Origin: Ilex aquifolium
Taxonomy: Eukaryota > Streptophyta > Magnoliopsida > Aquifoliales > Aquifoliaceae
Assembly (NCBI GenBank): GCA_951799425.1
Contig: OX637409.1
Coordinates: 19,952,460-20,016,459 of the forward strand
Length of the DNA stretch: 64,000 bases
Direction: 5' to 3'
In this document: positions 46,740 to 64,000 of the stretch, piece after piece
Numbering within the stretch: the stretch's first letter is position 1
Layout: each line of letters opens with the position of its first letter
Translations under genes and position numbers: made by a program
The notes under the pieces: generated by a model
Told to the model about the DNA's origin: nothing
Seen by the model: only the letters and a program-made list of their open reading frames with translations
The model's database searches: none

Positions 46740-47199
46740 AAATTTAAAATTTTAATGACGTGGCGTAACACGTTAATATGTGATGTCATTAATATGGTGA
46801 TGACATGACATACTACATAGTATTTTAGATTTTAATAATTAATAGTTAGTTAAAGTTAGTTGAGGTGATTAGATAAAATAAATAACATGATTGGAGTGAA
46901 TTTAAAAAAATGATTAACTAAAATAAATAATGTAATAAAAAAATATATTTTTACTAACAAGTTTGCATAGCCTCCTTGGAGTTCTAATACAGCACAATCG
47001 CAGAAGGAAAATGTTGTACGAAGGGATGAGCCAGCAGCCAAACACAAAAGACACCAACCATACAAAGTCTCCATGTATAACGCTTACTCTCAGTAAATCA
47101 GTTTGGTTGTTGAAAAAAACACTGTTCTTAACCTCAACATCCATAGAAATCAAGATTTCAAACTAGGGATCAAACAAGGGGTTTGAGACTACTTTGAAC
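46740..47199. other. Upstream region of the beta-galactosidase gene
   Basis: AT-rich to 46950, then more balanced. No firm TATA box or start site can be chosen. Any residue of the PIF element may end here. Confidence 0.4.
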
Positions 47200-50100
47200 A
47201 TGATGGGAAAAGGGTTTCTCATCGTTTTGTTTTTAGTGATTGGAGTTCTGGCAACGACGCCGTTTGCCGCAAATGTGACGTACGATCACCGAGCGTTGGT
47301 CATCGACGGAAGGCGGAGGCTCTTGATTTCCGGCGCCATTCATTATCCTCGCAGCACCCCCGACGTTTGTCTCTCTATCTCTCTCTCTGTGCACACAATT
47401 TCTCTCTCTGAATGTGTTTTCTCTGTGAATATATATTGTATGTATGTACAAATTGATGCAGATGTGGCCGGACCTTATTCAGAAATCAAAAGACGGAGGC
47501 TTGGATGTAATCGACACTTACGTTTTCTGGAACTTGCATGAACCAGTTCGAAACCAGGTTTCGTTTCACATTTGTGGCGGATCGCTTAATTTTGATTTTA
47601 GCTTTGTTTCGGTGCCGATTAAATGAGGAAAAGAAAACAAAAATGGAGTTTTTAATTTTGTCTGATATTTTACTATGATTCATAAATGGAGCAGTAAATT
47701 AAAAGCATAAATTACTTTTCTTAGCCACCCAAAAGGAGCAAGAATTTGAAAACAACGCTACATTGCTACTCTTACCAAGCTTAGCTTATCGAATCAATGT
47801 GGATTATCTCATTAACTTTTTTCAGTACAACTCACCGATCCAACTACTCGTGTTCCTTTGGTAAATAAAATTTTGTAAGGGTTTTGGTATAAGCATTGTT
47901 ACTCTTTAAAATGTGCCCTGTTTTCTTCATGTTAGCAATCTTGAATTTAATTATTTTAAATCAATTCAATGGTTGAGTACTAGTCAACATGACTGTTGGT
48001 AATTGCTGATATGCCAAGAAATTTTGCAGTATGATTTCGATGGTAGAAAAGATTTGGTTAAGTTTGTGAAATTGGTTGCGGAAGCTGGTCTTTATGTTAG
48101 TCTGCGGATTGGTCCTTATGTCTGTGCTCAGTGGAACTACGGGTAAATTTTATATGGATTTCCACAGAGATTAAGTTATATGCTGCTTGTGTAATTTCAT
48201 TCTTTCATTATATAGAAAGGAAGAGTTGATTAATGTTACATAATTTTACCATACACAGTTAATTATGTAGGAATCTAAGTTTCTATTTCTGAACAGTGGA
48301 TTTCCGCTGTGGTTGCGTGATATACCCGGAATACTGTTTCGAACTGATAACAAGCCTTTCAAGGTTTCTCCCGATCAGTCTTTTGTTGCTCTTAGTTTGT
48401 AAGTTGATGGTTCCATATTTGAAATCATCCATAAGCTTTCTTTTTTAGGCTGAAATGACGCGATTCACAGCCAAGATTGTAGACATGATGAAGCAGGAAA
48501 ATCTCTATGCCTCGCAAGGTGGACCCATTATCTTATCTCAGGTTCATTTCTTGTGTTTTTTTGTGATTCATTGTAATTGGCTGTTAACACGAGATTCTAT
48601 ATTGGTTTCTCCATATCATCACCTTATTGATTTGTAGAGGATAATATATTTGATTTTCTTGTCATGGAGTAATGAAACGGCACTCGTCATTTTTTAATGT
48701 CAGGTTGAGAACGAGTATGAAGTCCTTGAAGCAGCATTTGGGCCACCTGGAAAAACTTATATTAAATGGGCAGCAACCATGGCAACTTCTTTGGATACAG
48801 GGGTGCCCTGGGTGATGTCCATTCAATCAGATGCCCCTGATCCTATGGTGAGAGTTTCACTCTTCCAATATGTATGATAGTTTGTTAACATCAAAATCTA
48901 AATTTGTTACTTCCTAATCTTTGGTAGAGTTGCCAACTTCTTGTAGGATATGTCTTCTTACCAAGTAAACTAATAAACATGCATTTTATTCTTATATATA
49001 ATTGTAGATTAACACTTGCAATGGGTTTTACTGCGAGACATTCACCCCAAATTCTGACGAGAAACCAAAAATGTGGACTGAGAATTATAGTGGCTGGTAA
49101 AGTGGGCTACTTGGTCTCTCCAAAGTTCTAATTGTTCTTTGATTGTATACGTCTTTGCTTTCTTATCTCTGCTTCCACATTTTTAACCCTTGTCAGTATT
49201 TGAAATATTAGGTCTGTTTCATTTGGAAGTGCTGTGCCCTACAGACCTGTGGAAGACCTTGCTTTTGCTGTGGCGCGGTTTTTCCAGCGAGGTGGAACCT
49301 TACAGAATTACTATATGGTACTATATTTTTTTTTTTAATTTTTTTTTTTTTGGGGGGGGTGGGCTTGAATCCTTGAGCCTTCATAAGGCAAGGAGTACCA
49401 TTAGACTAAAGGCTCGTTGGTTACTATATGGTAGTATATCTGTTCATTTTTAGGCGTTTTACAAGTTCTTTTTATGATAGTAAATGTTGATATATTCTGA
49501 ACTCTAAAGACTGTAAAGTTCCATGTTCTGGTTGCCTTTTAACAGTACCATGGTGGAACCAACTTTGGCCGGGTTACTGCTGGGCCTTTTTATGCTACAA
49601 GCTACGATTTGGATGCTCCAATAGATGAGTATGGTATGCTTTGTTCATCAACCAAGTATTTAATTTTTCAATTACATTCGTCAATTAATTATTTTATTTG
49701 TTTACTTCTCGATACAAGAGGATGAGCATTAGCGTAACCGTAAGGTTGACTCATTGTAATTCGGACGTCAAAAGTTCGAGTTATGAAATTAGCCTATATG
49801 CATATGCATGTAAGGTAAAGTTGCATATATCTAGTCCTCCACAGTTCGTGAAATAATGGGAGCCTTGTGGACTTGGCTAACCTTTTTTTTTTTAACTTCT
49901 TTATATTGTCGGCCTTACATTTATGGTACCCAAATGCAACTCCAGTTATTAGTTGTCACTCATGCAAAACTGGACTAATATTTCTCGGACACAGTTTAAC
50001 TTGTTCTTAAGTTTTCTTTGGAAAACAGGGATATCCACATGACTACTAAATTCCTAAAATATTCATCCATAAGGGAAAAACATTTAATAAATCTGCATCA

Positions 50101-53100
50101 TACCTTATATCTCTAAAAGGGATTTACACTCTCATTCTGTTGCAGGACTTCTTAGACAACCTAAGTGGGGCCACCTAAAAGATTTGCATAAGGCCATAAA
50201 GCTTTGTGAAGAGGCAATGATGGCAACTGATCCAACTATTACTTCTCTTGGTTCAAATGTTGAGGTATACGGTTCACATTTGACCTTTGGTTCAATGGTA
50301 CTCCTTGCGCTTTACCGAAGTCAAGGGTTCTAGTCCCCCTCCCTCTCCCCCCACCACCCCCCAAAAAAAAAAGGTATACGGTTCACCTCATGGACAGGGA
50401 TGACTAATTTCTTCTTCTTTCGAAGAAGCAGCACAGGACATCGCCTCCTTTGCTATTTTATTGGTATAGATAGGGATGTGTCTCAAGGTTTTTGCATCTC
50501 CCATCATCTATCTTTTTCAACTCATATTTGCCCATGCATAACATAAGTCCTACCTCATGAGAGAGAGAGAGAGAGAAGATTCAAATTGTAGGTGTTTTAT
50601 TATGTAAAGCGTTTTAAAGTTGTATGGGACTACCCCAAAGTAGACAAATTGTACAATGTGAGTTCGGTGCATTATAAATGGTATTAGAGCTAGCACCACA
50701 AGAACTATGGGATTGATCAGGAGAATGTGTGGTTCAAAGAGGAGGATTGTGGGCATTTGATGCATTTGATACTGGAGTTAAGACTCCTTAAGATTAGGGT
50801 TAAAATGGATGAGGTGAGGTAAAGGTACCAAGCACATGTACTATGGCCCCTATTGCTTAGTGAAGTGTGTTTATGTGCTTTGTATAACTACGAACATTCA
50901 TTACGCAATGCGTAATGAATTTACAAAATTTTGAGGAGGCTTCAAGCCATGCCCATTCCTCCTTATGTTGGTTTGGACCATGGATCCACTTTCTACTCAA
51001 CTATTTGGCATGCGTTATCACAACACATTGGTTGAAATATCCCAAAATATATTGAAACATTCTAAAACATCACGAAATACAGAAAATTTGATATTCGATT
51101 ACTGATTCGTTTCCATTTCTATGGAAACCGAAGCGTTTCGATCATTTTGCTAGAAAACAGAATGAGATTTCGATCCTTGCCAATACTATATTTATGAACA
51201 ATTCCTCCTCCTTTCATAATGTGTTTCTTGAAACTGTAAGTTGTAATTTACTTTGATTCTTGTCTATTTTTGTGTAAACAATACAACCACTGGTACTCTT
51301 GGAGATTCCATAACCTGACTTATAACACTAACCACAAAAGAGATATCTGGTCTTGTAATATTCAAGTAATTCAATTTTCCCACTAGTTTTTTATACCTTT
51401 CTGGATGATTAAATAACTCCCCTTGTTCTGTGGTCAGTTTTGTATTAGATTCCATGGGAGTATCAATTGGTGTTGTACTAGTAAGTCCCATTTTAGCAAG
51501 TAGATCCAGTACATACTTGCACTCCACACTTGGATGTTGCCACTTCAATTACAGGAAAGTACCATAACTTACCCAGATTTTTAATATGAAACATCTGCTG
51601 CAAGAATGTTTTTAGAGCAATAATACCTTCACTACCACTCCCCATAATAACAATATCACCAACATAGACAGCTAAAACGATCATGCTAGATTTATAATTC
51701 TTACTAAACGCTGAGTGATCTACTTGACATTGTTGAAGTCTGAAGTCTAATACAACTTCACTGAATTTGTCAAACCACTCTCGAGGTGATTGTTTTAGGT
51801 CATATATCACCTTCTTAATTTGCATATCTTTCCACTAGACTCCTCTTGAGCAACAAACTCTGGTGGTTGCTCCATATAGACTTACTCAATCAATTTACCA
51901 TGTAGAAAAGGATTTTTGACAACTAACCAAAACAAGGGCCACCCAGGATGAGCAAGAGCTTCGTGAATAGTGTGAGGAACAGAAGGAGACAAGACAGATG
52001 ATGTAAAACAACGAAAGGTAGGAGATAAGCTATCATAAGAAAGAAAGTGGTCAATAGGATGAGCAATAGAACTCATAAGGAGGGTACATAAGTGCTTACC
52101 TTCCCGAAGTGAAACAGGAAGATTGGCATCTAGAGATGGTTGGAGAGCAAGACCTTTAGACAATATAGAGGGTAGCGGAGGCATTTGGACAACAGTCTTT
52201 TTGCGACGGGAGTACACCAGCGTAATAGAAGGTTTTGCAATATGCGAGAAAGTGGGCGAAGACAAAACAGAAAGGGATAAAGGAAGAAAAGACTGATGAA
52301 ATGCAACATCAATTGTAGCCTCAAAAAAGAAAGGAATAGACTCGAAGAATGTAACATCAGCATAGACAAATTGACGATGAAGGGTTGGATTATGGCACTT
52401 ATACCCATAGTTGTTAGTATTGTATGATAATCGATACAATACATACGATATGTTGCGATACATGAAGAAAATGATATGTATCGCTTAAGTGTATTAGTTT
52501 GCATCGTATCATGTGATACACGATACAATATACTCGATATACCAGACAATATGCACGAGTTGTTCGATACGGGACGAAACAGATTAAGAAAATATCGTCT
52601 TTTCACTTGGAAGTAATTTTTTCAAATACTAGGTAATAAAAGGATGTCGTTTCACCATCGACAGTTTTTAAGAAATAAAAGTCTTCTTTTTATTCATTCC
52701 ATCGAATGAGTAAATAGTTTGATCGTTAAAAATGTCCTCCTTTTGCTACTTTAGATGTTAGAACTAGAACTCACTAAATTTTGATATTAATGAATTATGT
52801 TAAAAACTTCAATATTTAGATTGTTAATTTTTTTTGTTTTAGTCCTTGTAGTCTCTTTAAATTATTTTATGTGAGAAATTTGTGGTGCAATGGAATGTAA
52901 ATATGATATTTTGTCATATATATATATGTATTTTTTAATATCTTTTATAAAACTGCACGTATTGTTAGATACGCGATACCCTGTTTTTAAAAAACGATAC
53001 GCCTTCGGATACACGTTTTGACAACTTTGCTTATACCTTTTTCGTGTACGAGAATAACCCAAGAAAAGACAATTGATAGATTTAAGATCAAGTTTGTCTA

Positions 53101-56100
53101 TGTCTGGACCTAACTGATAAACAAAGGCTACGCAACCAAAGACACGTTGTGGAATAGAGAATAAAGGACGATCAGGAAATACAATTTGATTATCAAGAAT
53201 AAACGAATGCATACGATTAATTAGGTGACATGCAGTAAGTACAACATCACTCCAAAAAATTTTAGGTACTTTCATATGAATCAAAAGAGTACGAGTAACT
53301 TCAATGAGGTGACGATTTTTGCGTTCAACCACTTCATTTTGTTGTTGGGTGCCACTGCATGAAGTGCAATGAAACAAACTATGGGTAGTGAAAAAAATCA
53401 TGAAATGAATTAAAGACATTCCTTTGCATTATCAGATTGTAAAATATGTACAAACACACCAAATTTGAGTCTTTATTTCCATAACAAAGGCTTTGAAAAT
53501 AGAAAACAATCCAGAACGATCTTTCATTAAGAATAGCCAGGTCATCCTAGAAAAATCATCTACAATGGTAATAAAATACTTAAACCCTAAATAAGAAAAA
53601 ACACGACTAGGACCCCAAATATCCGAATGAACAATTTCAAATAAACTAAAGACACGATTACAAACTCTAGGAGTAAATGAATTCCGAATATGTTTACCTA
53701 ACTGACATGACTCACAATCTAAATACGACAACTGAGGAATTAACTTCTGAAGACTTCACAAAGATGGATGTTTAAGTTAACAATGCCACTGATGTGAGGA
53801 ACATGAAGTGTGTAAAATAGAGCAGCAAGCAAGAATTGCATCAAGATAGTAAAGACCGTTGTTTTCATGATCTCCATCAATCATTTTCCTCGTCTAGAGG
53901 TCATGAAACACATAGAAAGAAGGATAAAATGTTACTAAACAATTTAAAGATTTAGTGAGTTGGCTCACAAATATTAAATTGAATGAAAATTTAGGAACAT
54001 GCAAGACTGAGGATAGAGACAGAGGAAGTAGGATTCACAGTGCCAACACCAGTTACTAAATATGAAGATCCATCAACTAATGTGACATATTGGTTAGTAG
54101 AAATATGATTAAAATTTGAGAGTGTGCTCATATTACTTGTCATATGATCAGAGGCCCCAGAGTTAATGACCCATAGAGATGAGGTAGACGAATTGGACAT
54201 CAAACATGCTTTACTTGAATAGGCCGCTGTAGAAGTAGAAGTAGGAGCACCAGACTTAGAAACAAGTCGATTATATTGCTCGTTGGACATAAAAATAATC
54301 TTTGATGTGGATGTAGGCTCACCAATAGCAGACTGTCCGAAACCCAAATCATCTGATAAAGATATAACATGAGCATAAGAGGAGGGTTTGTCATGTAGAT
54401 CCAAACTATAGTACACTGTATGACCTTTTAGTCCACAATAAGTGCGAAACTTCACAGATATGCGGCCTCTACTACTGTGGTTGACGGTTGGCCGTCGCCC
54501 ACCTCCTCTTCTCGCACTGCGATTTTCTCTGCCCCCACGAGGGAAATTGTTACTCCCTTTATTAGACAGTACAGCTAAAGCCGAGCGTTCAAGTACATGA
54601 ACACCACTATCACTGAATAAAGCTCGTTGAATATGAGAAAAAACTTGTCATCGAAGAAATTTCCTTACTAGCCAAAATCTGAGCATGAACAGGTTCCAAT
54701 TCTAATTTTAAACTTCAGAGGAAGCGAGCAACTATTAATTCCTCACGCTGCTTTTTCTGGACTTTCAAATCAGTAGAGAATGACTTATAAGCATTGAGAT
54801 TATTCATAATATTTTGCAGCATAGAGTAGTATTCTTCAATGATCTTATCACCTTGTTCCAGACTGAACAAATCTTGAAATAACTAATAAATTCTGGTAAT
54901 ATTATCTTCTCCAGAAAACAAACTACTAATCGCAATTCATATCTCCTTAGCAATTTCAAGAGACATGAGATGAATACTAATTCGAGACTCCATACTATTC
55001 CATAATAAAGTCATCACTTGTGCATTCTTTACTTTCCACTATTTAAGCTTTGAATCAAATTCGCTAGGCTTATCCTCTGTAAGATATTCAACTTTATTTT
55101 TTGCAGTAAAAAGCACTTCATCAAAGCAAGACCATGACACTTAGTTATTGCCATTCAGCTTAATAGAGGTAATAGATAAACCAGTAAAGTCTTGGCTCAC
55201 CACAGACCTAACAACACTGGAATTGGACTTATTTTCATCCATAATACCAGAACCAAGCAGAAGAAAAATAGAGGAGAGAAATCCAGCGCAGTAGTACCCT
55301 TGTACGCTGAAACAGGCACAAATAAAAAATCAACAAATATGATTTATTTGGGCAGAACCGGTCTGGAATCACGATGAACCGACTTGAGATGGATTGAATC
55401 GGATAGAACTAAAGCTGAACCAGTTTGGAAGGCGTTGAACCAGACCGATTTAAGTGTGAAACTGTTTGAACCAGGTTTGAAAGATGTCAAACCAGTCTAG
55501 TCTGGACTGAACCGGCTGGTTTGGACCTAACTTCTAAAGACGTGCTTCTGAAGATTGGGCTTGGGTTTCTGAAATAAATGTCCGAACTAGAAAGAAGGAT
55601 CTGGACCCTTTCTTCAACCTTTGGAGTATTTTGAAACCCTAGGATCCGATTAAATCTGGAACCTCTAAACTGCAACAACCTCTGGGCCTTTTCGAAACCC
55701 TAACCCTGATATGCAACAACCTCTGCCACCCAAAAAATGAATCAACCAACAATGAATCCGATTTCATTTAAGAACTGAACGACGATACTTGGACATTCGA
55801 TATTTAGCTCTTTTAACATCTTCACTCCACTGTGGTACATTCAATCACCCACATCAACGATTCTTGGACATTCAATGATCAATTTATTTGATCAACAACA
55901 TCAGCGACTTCGGTGGTTAGCAAATAGCAACTCCACCTTGATAACAAATAACAGCTCAACGGTGGTCGGCGAACAGCGACTCTACCTCGACGACATACGA
56001 TGGTTAATAGCGGTGAACAGTAACCTGCTTTGAACCATGCAAACAATACAACCAGAGAGAGGGAGAGAGAGACATAATTGAATGGGGAATAGAACACACA

Positions 56101-59100
56101 TCTTCCATTGACTAAAGAAAGATATATATAGTTACACATATGAGAACAAAAGAATGACTCAATTACCCCTCACTCACTAACATGCATCTTTTTAGAGCAT
56201 CTAAAAACCAATTAGCAATGGACAGGGTGGCTCATTACCATATAAACAAATTTTAGAGTGCCATAATCATTCAATGTGGAATACAACCTCTCGTTATATC
56301 CTCCCTCATGTGAGATTAGGGCTCACGCATGATAATTAATAAATGTAGTAATATGCATACCGGATAATTCAAATGGGTAAGAGACTTGGATCACTGACCG
56401 CTTAATACTCTATTCTGATACCATGTCAGGACATCCAACTCAAAACTAGTTGGGAATGAGTGGAGAGGGGCCTTAAACGTATAAACCAATCAGAGGTAGC
56501 CCTAGTCGTTCGACTCAGGATACAAAATCTCTTTACAAATATATGGCATGCTTTTCTTTTCCTGAGCATTCTGTGTGTAACAAGTTGCTCCCTGTGGCCT
56601 TTGACTTGTCATTATTTTGGTTTTCAAATAGATGTGCTTGAAATTTGCATTACTGTCATCTTTCCCTACACATCACAGGGAAGTGGGCTTGTTTTATTCC
56701 TTCCCCCATAGTATTGCATGTGGGTGAGCATTATTTAATCACAAGTTTCATTAACATGAATTTGTGTCTGTTTCAGGCCAGCGTTTATGAAACTGGATCA
56801 GGTTTATGTGCTGCTTTTATTGCCAACATTGATACCCAATCTGATACAACCGTGAATTTTAATGGCAATTCCTTTCACTTGCCTTCATGGTCTGTGAGCA
56901 TCTTACCTGACTGCCAGAATGTAGTCTTTAACACCGCAAAGGTTTGCCTCCTCAGCTTGTGTTCTCTCTTTTTGGAAGTTCAGTTTCCTTTTCTCTATTA
57001 AAAGAAAAAGAGCAACTCAGATATGGTTTCTATTGTTGATTCGTTGCACCATAGTTAACTGGCTTAAGGAAGTTTGAAATCAATGATGGATTTTGGGGCA
57101 GAGGGGAAAAAACTCCAAAATCCGTTAGTTTAAAACCTTGTTTGCTTAGTGAACTTCACAGTTATAAGCAGTTTACACCCCAATTTTTTTTCTAAAATGG
57201 TTTGCCCCAAGGCGGCCTAATTTCTGCATATGTCCTGTTCACAATAGGATGCCATTCTGTGGACATTAGAAAGTAACGGAAATAAATAACTGACAACACA
57301 AAAAGATTAATGTATTACCGATGTGGGCAACATGATATTCAATGACCGTAGTGAAAATTATCAATGTCTTATAGCAACTGCTGACTTACATTCCACTTCA
57401 TCATAAAAGATACCAGAACATATTTTTAAGGTACTTCTTGAGGGTCAATGTGGCATTATGTGGTAAAGAAACAATTATCTCAGTGTTGTGCTCGATTTGA
57501 CTTTGTGTTTTCTTCGAGATTCGATGTGGTGATACTGCCACTCCTATCTGATAGGTTCACGTGGGAACTGGATGTCAGCACTGATTTATGTCTGGTCTAA
57601 TGCAAGAATTAATTTTCTTGTTATTTGAGATGGTTCATCTTTAACTCTTCTCTCGAAGACTGATATGTCTTTGATAGTTTATATTAAATCACTGCGATAG
57701 TCCCACAAGAAGCCAAAATGAGTTACTATGCTTGGTTTGGCTCTAGGATTTCTTTCCGTTGGATTGACTGAATATAGGATCCTGTTTACCTTATTTGCAT
57801 GCTCTTAGATACTGTTCTAGATGCCTAAACGTTTGTGTTTTGACAGTCATACTCATCTACAAATCTCTTTGGTATCTTAAAATTGTTTTTCCCCTTATCC
57901 CAATAATGCTAGTTTTTTTTTTTGTCTGCCTAATGGTTTAGTGGTTCCACTTTCTAATTCACAAATAACTTGATTAGTTCTTGTTATTTTTTTGACACGT
58001 GTTTGCACGAGCGTGAATGTTTTTTGCTTGACTTACATCTTCTCTCAGTCAAACTGGAAATAGAAGAAACTTCACCTCACAGGCCTGTTCAACTAAAGTT
58101 TGTTGATGTTGGAATAGGCTGGGTTTGTCTAACTGTTATTGATTTGTAGTTGATGAATAGCATTATAATGATTTCTGAAGTATTCTAGTTGTCTACAGAT
58201 ACCTTGTCCTCAATTTCTCTCGGGGTCATTCTGAATTGGTTTTTTTCCCAATACAAATCTTTTGCTTCATTTGGATAGTAGCATAAACTAATTTGCAGCT
58301 TTCTTGTGACAGATTAACTCTGAGACCACCATTCCACGATTCGTCAGTCTATCGTTGAAAGATGGCATTAATTTTGAAGCATTCCATGCAGATTGGAGTT
58401 GGTTTAATGAACCAGTGGGTATCTCAAGTAACAACACATTCATGAAAGTTGGATTATTAGAGCAAATAAATACTACATCAGATAAAAGTGATTATCTGTG
58501 GTATTCACTTAGGTACCAGTAATCTACTCATAGCTTGGTTGCTGTGCAAGGCTTGACCATTTCCCCCCTTCTGATTTTTTTTTTTTTTGGGATTTCAAAG
58601 ATTTTCCTGGTTACTTTTGGCAGCACTGAAGTTAAAGGTGATGAACCTTTTCTTCAAGATGGATTTCAAACAGTTCTCCATGTGGAATCACTTGGTCATG
58701 CCCTTCACGCTTTTGTTAACGGGAAGCTTGCAGGTGATGGAAAATGGAAGATGGTTGCAAGGAAATTATTATCTTGGATGTTGCTATTCTCTTTCTAATT
58801 TATGTTCCATTTCCATTTAATCTCCTCTCGAAGCTCTTTTTCCCCAATTTTTTAGAAGCACTCCACTGCATTTCTCTTCCTCTTTACAATGAAAGGAACA
58901 TTATTAAATATTATTTGAATTGAAACCATTAAAGATAGTGTCACTTGGGAAAGCTTATAATGATTCATCAATAAGTAGCTGGTTGTTAGGACTAGGAGAA
59001 ACCATCAATAGATAATTAGATAAATTGCCATGAAAACATATTGAAACACGAGCTGCATGTCAGAGTTTTCAGTAGAGGCGGTCACCAATTCTGAGTTGGA

Positions 59101-61277
59101 ATTTGGAACATGAGACTGATTCCTGCTATTTCTTAGCTGTCCTCATCATCCCTTGTGATGTTAAGATGTATTGTTGCGAAATGAAATATGGATTTTGCTA
59201 GGACAACATATGTGTGAATTTTGAGCAGAAACACAATTATTTTTGGCATTAACTTTTGCATTTTTGGTAGAATTTTATAATTCATATGATCACAAATTTT
59301 GGAGTTGGTTCCACTAAGCTAGTCTTTGCAATCTATGTAGGGAGTGGAAAAGGCAGTGGCAACAACTTTACCAGTCTCAACAATGCTTCATTTTCCTTGG
59401 AGATTCCTGTCACACTAATACGTGGAAAGAACACAATTGATCTCCTAAGTTTGACAATGGGACTTCAGGTTCGACCTTAGTGATTATGATGTATGCGGGA
59501 GTCTTAAAAAGTGACGGCAGTATCTGCATTATATTCTTGCTGGTGGTTTCATATCGAGTAACCATCAAAATGTCGCTATGAAGATAGTGCAATCTAATGC
59601 AATTCTATAATTGTCTGCAGTATTTTGGAGTATTCTTTGAAAAGTGGGGTGCTGGAATCACTGGTCCGGTGCAGCTGAAAGGCTTAAAAAACCGTTCTAC
59701 TGTTGATCTCTCGTCACGGCAGTGGATGTATCAGGTCGATTTGATTTCACAAATATGTGATATATATCATCGAACAATGGAGTTAATTAACAAGAAATTG
59801 GCAATTACATTTACATGGCAAACTGTCTTATTTGAATTTCACAACTATTTTCTCCTGGAGAAGGTGTGCCTTTGCGTAGCGGTAAGGTTGCTCCTCGGTG
59901 ACTTGGGTGTCACTGGTTGGAGGATGTTGGTGTACAACAATGTACGTTTGACTCTCCCAGAGAGTGTGGGCCTAGTGCAATGGCGGAGCCTCTTGCACTT
60001 GGCCGTCATATTTTCTCCTACAAATCACTCCCAATGTAAACAAGGAAGTAAAAATCCCCATTGTAGATTCTAATTGACGAGAATATGATAGAAGGAATGC
60101 AGATTTTCTGCCTTGGATAGATTACATGTTTAATTGTAATTGCAGTAATCTTGGTTTCCTCCCTCTCATCTTGGTTTCTATGGTTGCAGATTGGACTTAA
60201 AGGGGAAGAATTGGGTCTGTCTCGTGGAAGTTCCTCACTTTGGGTATCACAACCTAATTTGCCAAAGAAGAGACCCCTGGTATGGTACAAGGTAATATCA
60301 AATTCTTATTATTTCAGTTACAATTAAGAAGATTATAAGGAATGAATCAGGAACATCTGCAATAGAATTGTCAAGTATTTGATTCCAAGTAGCCGCATTA
60401 CGATGTAATTGTGCTATTATATTTGTAAGCTTTTACATATAATTAAAAAAGAGGGGGGGGGGAAACAATCTTAGCTCAGACATTTGTCGTGGATGAAGGT
60501 AAATGAAGCACTGTTTATGAAGTTCCGATATTTCCTGTTCAGATTTATGTGCATAGCTTTGCACAATATATGTATTTCTTTGTATTTTTTGGGTCCAAAT
60601 GCACTTTGTCCATAATATATTGTGACCTTTGTCTATGACAGGTCCACTTTTTTCTAGGATAGGGTAAGGGCCATACATTTTTTAAATAGATAACTTGACC
60701 ATTGCCCAGGTTTTGTTTTCTAGTGACATGCTTAACCATTTGCTCATTTGGTGGACTCCAGTAAGGCTGAACTAATAAAAATGATTTTAAGAAAATCAGT
60801 GGTTCCTTCAGTACTAACAGAGTAAGCTTTCTTGTTAACTCAGGCAAATTTCGATGCCCCCACCGGCAATGATCCAATTGCCCTAGACTTAACAGGCATG
60901 GGGAAGGGTGAAGCCTGGGTAAATGGACAAAGCATTGGGCGTTATTGGCCAGCTTATATCTCACCGACTGGTGTATGCACTGACACTTGCGATTACAGAG
61001 GATCTTATAGACCAGACAAATGTCTCAAAAACTGTGGGAAACCATCTCAGCAACTGTAAGTGCTGGAGTCTCTGCTAAGATAAATTTATTGTTGTAACTT
61101 TGGTTCTCATCTCGTTGATCCTGCAGGTACCATGTACCTCGTTCATGGTTACAAACAAATGGAAACGTTCTCGTGTTGTTTGAGGAAATAGGCGGGGATC
61201 CAACACAGATATCTTTTGCCACCAGACAGATAGGAAGTTTGTGCTCGCAAGTATCAGAGTCTCACCAAAGCCTATAG
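47200..61277 (+). CDS. BGAL8: GH35 beta-galactosidase, BGAL8-like, 18 exons, C-terminally shortened
   Basis: Exons: 47200-47364, 47462-47557, 48030-48142, 48297-48363, 48449-48541, 48704-48847, 49008-49096, 49212-49317, 49546-49633, 50146-50264, 56777-56941, 58313-58512, 58624-58733, 59341-59468, 59621-59734, 60190-60291, 60844-61055, 61127-61277; all GT-AG, total 753 aa. Signal peptide ~1-24, mature start near NVTYDHRAL. The GH35 signature [14 protein letters not shown] is at ~169-183 with the ENE acid/base pair E180/E182, and the nucleophile is E251 in [10 protein letters not shown]. The secreted enzyme removes terminal beta-galactose from wall polysaccharides. Last residues [10 protein letters not shown] then QSL and stop; relatives continue for about 100 residues with a SUEL-type lectin domain. 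The stop follows what looks like a one-base loss near 61265. Also [13 protein letters not shown] has Ser where relatives have Cys. Intron 10 is 6.5 kb because of a copia insertion. Confidence 0.93.
49327..49420 (-). mobile_element. Short tRNA-derived SINE in intron 8, target duplication over the splice donor
   Basis: On the minus strand: A-box-like TTTAGTCTAATGGTACTCC, B-box-like GGATTCAAGCCC, C-run, poly-A. Flanked by TTACTATATGGTACTATAT (49308-49326) and TTACTATATGGTAGTATAT (49421-49439), one mismatch in 19. The left copy contains the exon 8/intron 8 junction (ATG|GTACTA), so the 5' splice site is duplicated. Same family as 50278-50371. Confidence 0.85.
49724..49876 (+). mobile_element. Au-like tRNA-derived SINE in intron 9
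   Basis: Similar in order to 59857-60008: TAGCGTAACCGTAAGGTTGA, then AGTTCGAGTTATG, then TGTAAGGTAAAGTTGCATAT and GGGAGCCTTGTGGACTTGG. More diverged than the intron 15 copy; target duplication not clear. Confidence 0.65.
50278..50371 (+). mobile_element. Short tRNA-derived SINE at the start of intron 10, target duplication over the splice donor
   Basis: A-box-like TTTGGTTCAATGGTACTCC, B-box-like GGGTTCTAGTCCCC, C-rich stretch, 10-A tail. Perfect 15-bp duplications AGGTATACGGTTCAC lie at 50263-50277 and 50372-50386. The first spans the exon 10/intron 10 junction (GAG|GTATAC), so a second intact-looking donor lies 109 nt downstream. Confidence 0.9.
50560..51245. other. Intronic stretch with a possible LTR-element scrap
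   Basis: ATTATAAATGGTATTAGAGC (near 50680) resembles the end of a plant LTR followed by a tRNA-Met primer site, but no element body follows. (GA)n at 50561-50576. The rest is unremarkable. Confidence 0.3.
51250..56423 (-). mobile_element. Ty1/copia retrotransposon fossil in intron 10 of the beta-galactosidase gene
   Basis: Antisense to the host gene. In the element's own order (right to left): primer site complementary to tRNA-Met (TGGTATCAGA, ~56413-56423), gag-like and zinc-knuckle region (~54460-55200), protease ([12 protein letters not shown], ~54140), integrase zinc-binding and core (~52860-53760), reverse transcriptase with the YVGDI box (~51264-51825). One LTR edge starts TGTCAGGACATCC at 56424. 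Clearly old, with many breaks. A hAT element (52406-53029) is inserted in the integrase/RT part. Confidence 0.88.
52406..53029. mobile_element. Non-autonomous hAT element nested in the copia element, 624 bp
   Basis: Termini CATAGTTGTTA and TGACAACTTTG are imperfect inverted repeats. Perfect 8-bp duplications CTTATACC lie at 52398-52405 and 53030-53037. The body is rich in CGATAC/GTATCG motifs. Non-coding. Confidence 0.88.
56424..56776 (-). other. Copia LTR edge and remainder of intron 10
   Basis: From 56424 (TGTCAGGACATCCAACTC) the sequence resembles plant copia LTRs (GAGTGGAGAGGGGCC, CGTATAAACC). The far edge of the LTR is not evident; ordinary intron sequence runs to the acceptor at 56776. 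Confidence 0.4.
59857..60008 (+). mobile_element. Au-like tRNA-derived SINE in intron 15
   Basis: TGCCTTTGCGTAGCGGTAAG (A-box side), GTGTCACTGGTTGGAGGATG (B-box side), then a body ending GGCGGAGCCTCTTGCACTTG, as in a SINE family found in many eudicots. Flanked by TATTTTCTCCT at 59846-59856 and 60009-60019. Confidence 0.8.
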
Positions 61278-61598
61278 ACATGTGGACCTCAGACCAAAAC
61301 AGAGGAAGGGAATCAGGAGCAACTCTTTCCCAAATCAGGTCATTTCATCAATTAAGTTTTCCTACCCTTCTCTACCTCTATAAGTGCCAGTAAATATGCC
61401 ACTATATTGACTCTTTTTTGGAAGGCAAGATACTTGTGTAGGAGAAACAGTAATTTAACGGGCATATGTATAACCCTTATTTAAATTATCTAACTTGCAT
61501 TATTAATCCCAAGAAGTAGCTCCAAACATGTTTTCTTGAATCATACTTCTAGGTGAATGCTTGGTCAACAAAGAAGAATACAATTTTATTAATTATCA
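61278..61598. other. Convergent intergenic gap (beta-galactosidase and root-cap gene)
   Basis: Bases 61278-61338 continue the beta-galactosidase coding pattern in another frame and end at a possible donor (CAAATCAG|GT). No lectin-domain exon is present before the antisense stop codon at 61599, and no clear poly(A) signal can be singled out. Confidence 0.6.
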
Positions 61599-63189
61599 TC
61601 AGTATTGAGATAATCCCATTGTAGCAACTCCAGGTGGTCTCTGAAACCTGCAGGCCTTGCAGAGAGGTGTATAGAGAGATGGAGTCTGGTACTTGTCCTC
61701 CCCACCCATCATAGGCATTGGAACTCCTCTCTTGACTGGGCTGACATAGCCTGGTCTGTAAGTCTTGCCCAGAACTCCCTCCACAAGATCTGATAGATTG
61801 AAGAACCTGAACTGTGTCTCCAAGTGAGCAAAAGCATCATCGGCCGGTAACTGGTAACTGTGAATCCGGTTGTCTTCTTCTCCTATCGGTGTCACTTTCA
61901 CATCCAATTCCACCAGCCCCGTGACTGTCACTCTTACAGAGTTAGTGTCATCTGTTCTTTCTATAACGACTTCTCTCTCTCCACTGCTAATCCTCCATTC
62001 GGCCTCGCCATCCATAGGGACGTTAACTGTCTCACCATTCCACTTCACAACAAGAGCATCAAGGTTGTCATCCCAGTGTGAGATTTTCTTTGCTGCAAGG
62101 ACAAGAGTGTGAGTGTCGAACATAACTGAGAGGGCTTGAACCCATGTAAAGTCACGAGTCCTCCCCTCCGGTCGGATTCCAATGAAGTGGGCATTGATGT
62201 GTAGGTTATCATCTGAGACAATAGCAAAGTCTCCCCCCTTGGCTCCATGGAAGTAGAACATCACACCATCACCACCAACAAACCTAGGATCATAACACAG
62301 AGAGCCATATCCATGGCAATTGGGCCTTCTCCCTGACAAGGAATTTGAATTCTCTCTCAAGATCAGAACATTTTTATATTCTCTCACTTTCGGAAGCTAG
62401 AAAACATTCTTCTTTAGGTTATGGGAAATCGCACATATCTTAAACAACACAGGTTTTATGCTCCTCAAGACGTGTGAACTTATGTCTTGCCCATTATTTG
62501 ACTACCCGTGCAAGTTGTTGTTAGAATGTATTAAAAGGTTAACTTCAAGAGGACTTGGAGCCAATTCTTTTTACAGCAGTTCTACTGTATCAACTTTTAA
62601 CCTTACCGTTCATTTCAATTTCTATTCCTTTTTTCTGTGATTTTTCATGTTCGTGTTTGCCTTTTGGACCTGTTTAGTACGTCAATCATGTATGGGTTGA
62701 ACTAGTTTTGACATGAAACGAACGGGTTGGCACGATACGATTGTCAGACATATTAAATATGAAGTCCAATAATGAAAACGAGAGGGTTTAGGCCAGGAGG
62801 TATTAAAATGAGTAAGTAGACTTACACTTGCAAGTGACTTCACACCTGCTGCTGCAGTCAACAAAACATCCCTTTCTCTTCCTGTTGTTCTTGGGCTTCC
62901 TTTGAGGACACTGAGCTGGGCACGTTAGGGTCGTGTTGTAACAAGCCCCTCTAGCTCCGCAGAGAGCTCGTTCCTCCTCCGTCCCTGGTAGCGGTTTCAA
63001 ATTGCGGTAATGGGTTGAAGCAGCATCGTTAGGCAGCTTCTTTCGATTATTATTATTATTGTTGTTGTTGTTGTTGCCGTTTCCGTTCCCATTGTTACCA
63101 CCATTGCCTTGACCTTGGACAAAGGTGGCTTCCATGGAGATGAATATAAGAAGGAAAGCCACGAAAATGCATGATTTTCTCTTATCCAT
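61599..63189 (-). CDS. Secreted root-cap domain protein (PF06830 type)
   Basis: Two exons, 62826-63189 and 61599-62332 (minus), with a 493-bp intron, giving 365 aa. Start chosen at 63189 because a signal peptide follows (MDKRKSCIFVAFLLIFISME, cleavage near residue 26). A Gly/Asn-rich tract (residues ~27-48, ten Asn in a row from an AAC/AAT microsatellite) leads to a Cys-rich region (GCFVDCSSRCEVTCK) ending at the splice junction, then the root-cap domain (NCHGYGSLCYDPRFVGGDGV, GAKGGDFAIVSDDNLHINAH, GKTYRPGYVSPVKRGVPMPM, CKACRF). The family is named from root-cap-expressed genes and its biochemical function is not established. Length is typical and the gene looks intact. Confidence 0.93.
63046..63075. 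repeat. (ATT)n/(GTT)n coding microsatellite
   Basis: Trinucleotide repeats coding the poly-Asn tract of the root-cap protein; in-frame length variation would only change the Asn count. Confidence 0.9.
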
Positions 63190-63760
63190 CTCTAAATTGC
63201 TGCGCTTCTTCTTTGTGTTGCCCCTTCTTGTGTTGATTTGTGGTATGAAGGGAAACATGGATATAATGGGACTAGAGTGTCCTTTAGAAAGCACGACTCT
63301 GGTGATTAGGCCTTGGAGTTCGGCTTAATTCTTGTGAGTTTAACTTGCTCTGATGAATAAACAGCTAAGAAATACTTCACTTTCTGTTCTTGGGGCGATG
63401 GGTTTGACTTTATGGGTATGCCTTTTTTGAATTGAAATTCTCTCTATTACATTTTTTTTTCAATTTCTTTTTTTTTTTTGGTTCAATAGTTAGGGTATCC
63501 ATATCACTTTTTCTCAATTTCACTCAAATGATAAAATCATTCACTGTGTATGAGTGAAAGACCCACTAGTAAATGGTGGGTTTTATGAGTATTAAGGATA
63601 GAAGATTTATTATTAAATGAAATTGAATTAAAGTATAATGAAAATGGTCTAGATCTGCTTTTTTTATTTTGAAATGTTGGAAATCGTCAAACTTTAGTTT
63701 TAGTATTTGGTTGAGTTAATAAGAAGCAAAGTTCTTGGGACACTCAGACTTTGTCAATTG
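63190..63760. other. Upstream region of the root-cap gene
   Basis: A minus-strand TATA-like site (ATTATATCC, about 63259-63267) lies ~75 bp before the start codon and is the best promoter candidate. T-rich runs at 63450-63480 follow. No gene recognised. Confidence 0.4.
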
Positions 63761-63764
63761 AAAG

Positions 63765-64000
63765 TGATTTTTTTTCCAGGCGAAAGCTAAGTCTAGGAAT
63801 AGGGTATGCTTTATGCTTAAAAGAGGCCGAAGCAAAGGAATTCATTTGATTCTAGGTCGATGGGTCAAGTAGAAAAATAGCAGAAGAATTTGATTAGAGT
63901 GTTCACTCTGGAAGAATCCTTGGTCTTAAAGGGAAGAAAACAGGCAATAGCGCGATACCAAAAAGAAAGCTAAGCGCGCAGATAGAGAGCAAAGCAGAAA
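63765..64000. other. Possible mitochondrial-DNA insertion (NUMT) running off the right edge
   Basis: Composition shifts to more balanced GC, with phrases such as GGCGAAAGCTAAGTCTAGGA and AAAGCTAAGCGCGCAGATAG that resemble plant mitochondrial spacers. No mitochondrial gene is identifiable, so this is a suspicion only. Confidence 0.3.

Follow-up and report, generated by a model that had tools for sequence, protein, structure and literature searches.

The window analysed here is a stretch of 64,000 nucleotides (nt) of the Ilex aquifolium genome, a part of contig C19 of an 800-Mb assembly. It contains a gene for a beta-galactosidase of family GH35, into which two short interspersed nuclear elements (SINEs) have inserted, one in intron 8 and one in intron 10. 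Both SINEs are flanked by direct repeats that run across the exon/intron junction, and each of the two introns possesses two donor sites. We consider it highly probable that this arrangement arose by two separate, ordinary target-primed insertions of a single transfer RNA (tRNA)-like SINE family into two old introns, and that the overlap with the donors is a coincidence.

The SINE of intron 8 (49327..49420, minus strand) lies antisense to the gene. Its T tract, which represents the A-tail, adjoins the upstream donor. Relative to the family consensus, this copy shows a gap of 15 nt. The SINE of intron 10 (50278..50371, plus strand) lies in sense and is composed of a tRNA-like part, a C-rich part and an A-tail. 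These two are the sole matches of a 20-base head pattern (up to 3 mismatches) in the window, where shuffling lets 0.00 be expected. The initial annotation had already placed both SINEs and both direct repeats at these positions, had assigned the SINEs to one family in opposite orientations, and had numbered the exons as in our gene model; in all these respects it agrees with the present analysis.

The duplication at the junction of exon 8 and intron 8, TTACTATATGGTA[C/G]TATAT, is identical at 18 of its 19 nt. Its upstream copy (49308..49326, plus strand) holds the donor GT at 49318-49319 (TATATG|GTACTATAT), and the downstream copy (49421..49439, plus strand), at a spacing of 113 nt, holds a second donor GT at 49431-49432 (TATATG|GTAGTATAT). 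The duplication at exon 10 and intron 10, AGGTATACGGTTCAC, is identical at all 15 nt with a spacing of 109 nt; here the donor GT is found at 50265-50266 in the upstream copy (50263..50277, plus strand; GAG|GTATAC) and at 50374-50375 in the downstream copy (50372..50386, plus strand; AAG|GTATAC). The earlier claim of duplications across both junctions, leaving two donors per intron, was thus accurate, but the 13 nt that it gave for the duplication at exon 8 was too low. With 19 and 15 nt, both repeats have a length typical of target duplications (about 8-20 nt). We interpret them as such because the A-tail meets one copy and the head of the SINE the other, and because both sites are single-copy in the closest paralogue. 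Chance direct repeats are ruled out on the same grounds, as the repeats abut the ends of the SINEs.

This closest paralogue (contig C4, locus L069, compared over exons 8-11) shares the positions of introns 8-10 as well as the exon ends. Its junctions read ATTACTATATG|GTCCTGTATCTGTTCAG at exon 8 and TTAGAG|GTATACTGGAATT at exon 10, without any repetition. The SINEs therefore entered older introns, and a creation of the introns by the SINEs is ruled out. When intron 8 is aligned with its counterpart, one cheap long gap being allowed, the two differ by a single gap of 113 nt. A fragment on contig C7 agrees with the paralogue for intron 10, and in the other paralogue pieces a GT donor is present, as judged by eye, at the same place in 6 of 6 cases at the end of exon 8 and likewise in 6 of 6 at the end of exon 10. 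A piece of the same beta-galactosidase lineage (L070, contig C7:23038850-23039400) matched only exon 10 among the exons 8-11 searched; by eye it carries one small deletion and one small insertion relative to the C4 copy, and is perhaps a piece of a pseudogene.

The two SINEs differ from each other in internal deletions and variants, and their divergence from the family consensus is 12% and 15%, compared with a median of 9% (ranks 127 and 163 of 173 copies). These differences rule out that one SINE is a copy of the other and indicate, as had been proposed before, two independent insertions, which derive from different source copies. Target-primed reverse transcription is the established mode of insertion of SINEs and of long interspersed nuclear elements (LINEs), and the positions of the A-tails accordingly point to the strands that were nicked. 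For the sense SINE of intron 10, the antisense strand would have been nicked ahead of the final two bases of the exon; for the antisense SINE of intron 8, the sense strand would have been nicked behind base +9 of the intron. The two putative nicks are on opposite strands and 11 nt apart relative to the exon/intron junction.

The SINE family in the genome

The family is dispersed in high copy number. A 23-base head pattern (up to 3 mismatches) has 1,901 matches in the genome and a box B pattern (up to 2 mismatches) 1,125, with 1 match in the control in either case. Copies for comparison came from 100 places listed from the 1,901 head-pattern matches (30 + 60 places sampled, 2 redundant, 8 left) and from 60 of 100 places listed from the 1,125 box B matches. 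Loci L002-L068 and L083-L202 together with the intron 8 copy yielded 173 copies, after headless copies and duplicates had been removed by script. The majority consensus of these copies contains a box A, TGGTCCAATGG, and a box B, GGTTCAAGTCC, which we recognised by the consensus of such promoter boxes; they are 41 nt apart. For the polymerase III boxes A and B of tRNA-derived SINEs, a distance of 25-50 nt is given (PMC8825457).

At the 3' end, a C-rich stretch followed by an A-tail is present in both window copies and in most copies examined. A target duplication with a score of at least 9 accompanies 124 of the 173 copies, the window pair included, where shuffled pairs let 3.7 be expected. The 49 copies without a credible duplication were left out of all motif counts; in a first-pass count three duplications of low complexity were removed by hand, and later counts follow the score cut alone. 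ARAGORN detected no tRNA gene in the window, which is why we regard the SINEs as tRNA-like and rule out that they are tRNA genes. Rfam provided no RNA in 47000-64000 at E 1.

Pairs of copies as close as those in the GH35 gene are not the rule. Among 66 other loci, examined with a flank of 1.5 kb and at least 2 of them fetched twice, 64 had a recognisable head, and in 2 of these a second copy occurred within the flank; a SINE pair within 1 kb is uncommon, not unique. Two other loci of the family, L114 (C7:34010064-34010396) and L115 (C7:34111999-34112331), are situated about 102 kb apart and share identical target duplications and flanks, as expected of a segment that was duplicated rather than of two insertions. 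In intron 9, a tRNA-like SINE of a second kind, recognised by eye, occupies 49712-49895 and ends in ...GGGAGCCTTGTGGACTTGG..CTAACC followed by a T run; it appears to resemble the Au family. A sequence near 59860 is, again by eye, similar to its 5' part, and a pattern typed for this SINE had no match.

The host gene, its splicing and the inverted pair

The GH35 gene (47200..61277, plus strand) comprises coding exons 1-18 with GT-AG introns and an open frame throughout, and its spliced translation of 753 amino acids contains no stop; the exon 17/18 boundary was set by hand and shifted by one base. In a Pfam search with the 415 amino acids of exons 1-11, the product matched PF01301 (GH35; 381 bits, 7.8e-114) and PF17834 (88 bits). 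A GH35 domain is thus followed by a beta-sandwich domain, in the layout of plant-type GH35 enzymes. The best solved relative of the same residues is chain 3w5f_A (3.2e-183, aligned over 25-414), a tomato protein. Between the gene and its C4 paralogue, the ratio of nonsynonymous to synonymous substitutions (dN/dS) over exons 8-11 is 0.28 (dN 0.097, dS 0.352). From its sequence, the gene seems to be working and still constrained, and a pseudogene that tolerates insertions is ruled out by the frame open across 18 exons together with this ratio. Intron 10 measures 6,512 nt compared with about 834 nt in the C4 paralogue. By eye, a region at about 51250-56300 within it contains apparent remains of a Copia-type retrotransposon on the reverse strand; direct repeats of at least 25 nt resembling long terminal repeats were not found in 50400-56760.

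The three exons concerned are all on the plus strand. Exon 8 (49212..49317) ends in ...NYYM, exon 9 (49546..49633) has 88 nt, and exon 10 (50146..50264), with 119 nt, ends in ...GSNVE. The initial annotation had pointed out that 113 and 109 are not divisible by 3 and that use of a downstream donor would shift the frame. Splicing from it would add 113 or 109 nt, and translation past the junction would end at codon 7 or 23. The full protein requires the upstream donors. The upstream copies retain the exon and the first nine (exon 8) or thirteen (exon 10) intron bases; the region recognised by U1 extends from -3 to +6, so these are enough. In an approximate weight matrix, the strengths of the two donors are nearly equal (4.4 and 4.5 at exon 8; 6.9 and 6.7 at exon 10), and the surrounding sequence must therefore decide between them. 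Plant splicing favours a change from exon to U-rich intron. The 50 nt that follow the upstream donor of exon 8 are 60% T; past the upstream donor of exon 10, T makes up 40% and C 22% of the first 50 nt, and over the first 100 nt the shares are 28% and 38%. This composition suggests that the upstream donor is favoured at exon 8, and that exon 10 is the likelier place of mis-splicing. At the downstream donor of exon 10 (50356-50378), a C-rich tract and the A-tail lead into AG|GTATAC, an acceptor-like AG standing directly before the GT. Recursive splicing is conceivable in principle: excised as a small intron, the 109-nt SINE unit would restore the donor.

The two SINEs form an inverted pair around exons 9 and 10, which together measure 207 nt, a multiple of 3. 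For the two blocks of SINEs and duplications, a duplex of -100.9 kcal/mol is predicted; shuffling the intron 10 block 200 times gave a mean of -50.4 (standard deviation 5.3, lowest -68.1, z -9.6). When 1,351 nt are folded at minimum energy, 66 pairs join the blocks, and about 65 such pairs are expected in each of four folds of 1,201-1,601 nt. In these folds, the predicted openness of the upstream and downstream donors is 0.55 versus 0.34 at exon 8 and 0.62 versus 0.48 at exon 10. If the SINE of intron 10 is taken away, both exon 8 donors are predicted to close (0.09, 0.12), so that the upstream one is more open with this SINE than without it (0.55 versus 0.09); if the SINE of intron 8 is taken away, the downstream donor of exon 10 opens (0.67). 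In a local fold without the partner, the downstream donor of exon 10 is the more open one (0.74 versus 0.62), and both donors of exon 8 stay shut (0.08, 0.12). Predicted structures of long RNAs are unreliable, and we treat these values as weak evidence. A definite prediction that the pair makes is a circular RNA of exons 9-10, or the in-frame skipping of both.

Overlap with the donor sites and its possible causes

The nick sites of the 124 duplications follow a TT|AA-like motif, with T at -2/-1 in 50% and 52% and A at +1/+2 in 69% and 52% of cases, the value at +1 being inflated in part by the A-tail. Motif counts around the nick (13 motifs, two zones) refer to the 122 copies other than the window pair, unless stated otherwise. 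TA occurs near the nick at 1.73 times its frequency in the flanks (p 1.7e-8) and GGT at 1.12 times. AGGT is not enriched, neither near the nick (2/732, ratio 0.73) nor further in (4/974, ratio 1.09; flank 46/12,235). In the antisense direction, which the intron 8 copy requires, AC (0.79) and ACC (0.26) near the nick show no enrichment either. Donor-like sites with a matrix score of at least 4 are as dense in the duplications (28/3,396) as in the flanks (182/23,257; ratio 1.05). Counting the window copies, which contribute 3 of 31 sites at score 4, brings the ratio to 1.15 at that score and to 1.52 at score 6. For AGGTA/AGGTG, we counted 4/1,332 against 24/12,114 (ratio 1.52, p 0.35).

Exon ends were not detected at the other copies with any clarity. 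A fully open frame spanning 24 codons or more precedes 6 of 26 donor-like sites, compared with about 11 expected from the 42% in flanks (993/2,377, 33-codon frame); for the other 2 of the 28 the sequence upstream was too short, and exons shorter than 24 codons would escape. None of the 6 sites with an open frame has a Pfam match at E 1, in a weak test that recovered 1 of 2 known exon ends (E 0.043). Among the copies checked by this weak exon test, none lies clearly at an exon end.

How surprising is a double hit, then? If insertion is uniform, 16% of 19-nt duplications in intron 8 at its empty length of 115 nt would include the donor; for intron 10 at the length of its paralogue (834 nt), the figure is 1.7%. 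A rough simulation on assumed values (30,000 genes, a mean of 4.5 introns of 400 nt on average, 1,900 or 4,000 copies and 15-30% of insertions intronic) yields 11-45 donor-covering insertions per genome. Although uncommon, the double hit was spotted in hindsight and can do without a special mechanism.

Several observations nevertheless weigh against a mere coincidence of two ordinary insertions. The joint chance for two insertions into introns of the GH35 gene is 0.0005 to 0.002 with uniform points, and in the simulation the chance that some gene in the genome has two donor-covering insertions is 1-5%. Near the nick, GT is found in 56/732 compared with 626/12,477 in the flanks (1.52 times, p 0.003), and AGT at 2.0 times the flanks (p 0.002). 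Donor-like sites with a score of at least 8, the window copies included, number 4/3,460 against 11/23,645 (ratio 2.49), none of the 4 being in the window copies, and among the first 85 duplications, those of the first-pass count, AGGTA/AGGTG occurred in 5/1,000 versus 90/42,661 (ratio 2.4), one of the five being a window copy. Just past the exon 10 junction, the paralogue differs by about 28 further bases, and the empty site is less clean than that of intron 8. Finally, the use of the upstream donors is deduced from the reading frame.

The initial annotation had suggested that the family might prefer targets that overlap the donor consensus. The endonuclease of a helper LINE with such a preference would bring the family onto donors, and besides the position of both SINEs, the excess of GT and AGT on the nick side and the strong donor-like sites fit this idea. 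We nonetheless regard it as very improbable. AGGT is not enriched, the density of donor-like sites equals that of the flanks, the antisense motifs are not enriched, fewer donor-like sites than expected have an open frame, and the two nicks in the GH35 gene are unlike in strand and offset. The counts reveal that GT is mildly preferred directly behind the nick in sense orientation, but no preference for the donor consensus emerges from them. Short direct repeats around an insert can also be left by break repair that draws on nearby DNA, but this is extremely improbable as an alternative to retroposition here: the inserts belong to a SINE family of high copy number, their A-tails and heads abut the repeat copies, and the same layout of duplications recurs in most of the sampled copies.

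It was likewise suggested that selection had favoured insertions that leave a working donor. Insertions that break a donor or an exon would indeed be removed, and the frame of the gene is intact. Yet insertions deeper in the intron also spare the donor, survivorship explains only the lack of exonic copies, and the spread cannot be judged from the two family copies in this gene. Since any SINE that enters the first 18 or so nt of the intron will duplicate the donor and spare the upstream one, selection for a working donor adds nothing, and we consider a persistence of near-exon insertions only where the duplication leaves a working donor quite unlikely. A function of the inverted pair, which may loop out exons 9-10 (as circular RNA or by in-frame skipping) or set the balance between the donors as a switch to nonsense transcripts, appears unlikely as well. 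The predicted duplex, far below the shuffle mean and with a steady number of expected pairs in four sizes of fold, the in-frame length of the two exons and the immediate stops after the downstream donors would suit it. On the other hand, any inverted pair of one family yields such a duplex, the local fold makes the downstream donor of exon 10 more open and closes both exon 8 donors, and in tea, as in other plants, the introns that flank circular RNAs seldom carry reverse-complementary sequences, according to a study of circular RNAs in tea (PMC9861842). In its boldest form, the idea is that the two inverted, donor-duplicating SINEs pair into a stem within the pre-mRNA, and that this stem loops out exons 9-10 and at the same time sways the opening of the donors, as a two-way splicing switch; this we hold to be rather doubtful. 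If true, transposon debris would have built a two-way splicing switch in the gene of a cell-wall enzyme.

We therefore favour two separate insertions whose overlap with the donors is coincidental. Each SINE would have struck the first 18 or so nt of its intron, and the repair of the staggered cut would have copied the exon/intron junction along with it. Splicing most likely continues normally from the upstream donors, so that the SINE and the second donor remain intronic. That both hits are at donors is most likely a coincidence, because the introns are short (intron 8 has 115 nt when empty, and about 16% of its points suffice) and because the sampled copies show no donor targeting.

Relation to known insertions and implications

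A SINE at a junction with the splice site in its target duplication is already known, at an acceptor, from the dog. The Merle SINE in PMEL (SILV) is likewise tRNA-derived, sits at an intron/exon boundary and has a 15-bp target duplication of the splice site, but it concerns an acceptor, that of a single intron, and changes both splicing and coat colour (PMC7349775); the present case involves two donors in one plant gene and is known from sequence. In wheat, the Au SINE provides a parallel for plant SINEs in genes: 35 of the 40 cases studied are intronic, and some transcripts contain the SINE. It is a different SINE family, however, and duplicated splice sites are not described in the accessible part of that source (PMC5787218). 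Inverted intronic pairs of Alu that alter splicing, and circular RNAs linked to young repeats (PMC2533698, PMC8516420), resemble the GH35 gene in having repeats of one family in opposite orientation within one transcript; those are primate or other vertebrate repeats, whereas here we deal with a prediction. Among the open-licence literature matches listed, no title or beginning of an abstract mentions a plant SINE with a duplicated donor.

The case of the GH35 gene alone does not show a targeting of splice sites. It does provide insight into how a retroposon can land beside an exon without evident harm, as repair copies the donor rather than destroying it, and a spare donor and a fragment of the exon are left in the intron. 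A pair of plant SINEs in such an arrangement yields a definite prediction of a circular RNA. With RNA reads, the gene would likewise offer a natural experiment on how the plant spliceosome chooses between near-identical donors that are 113 or 109 nt apart, with a U-rich insert between them in one intron and a C-rich insert in the other.

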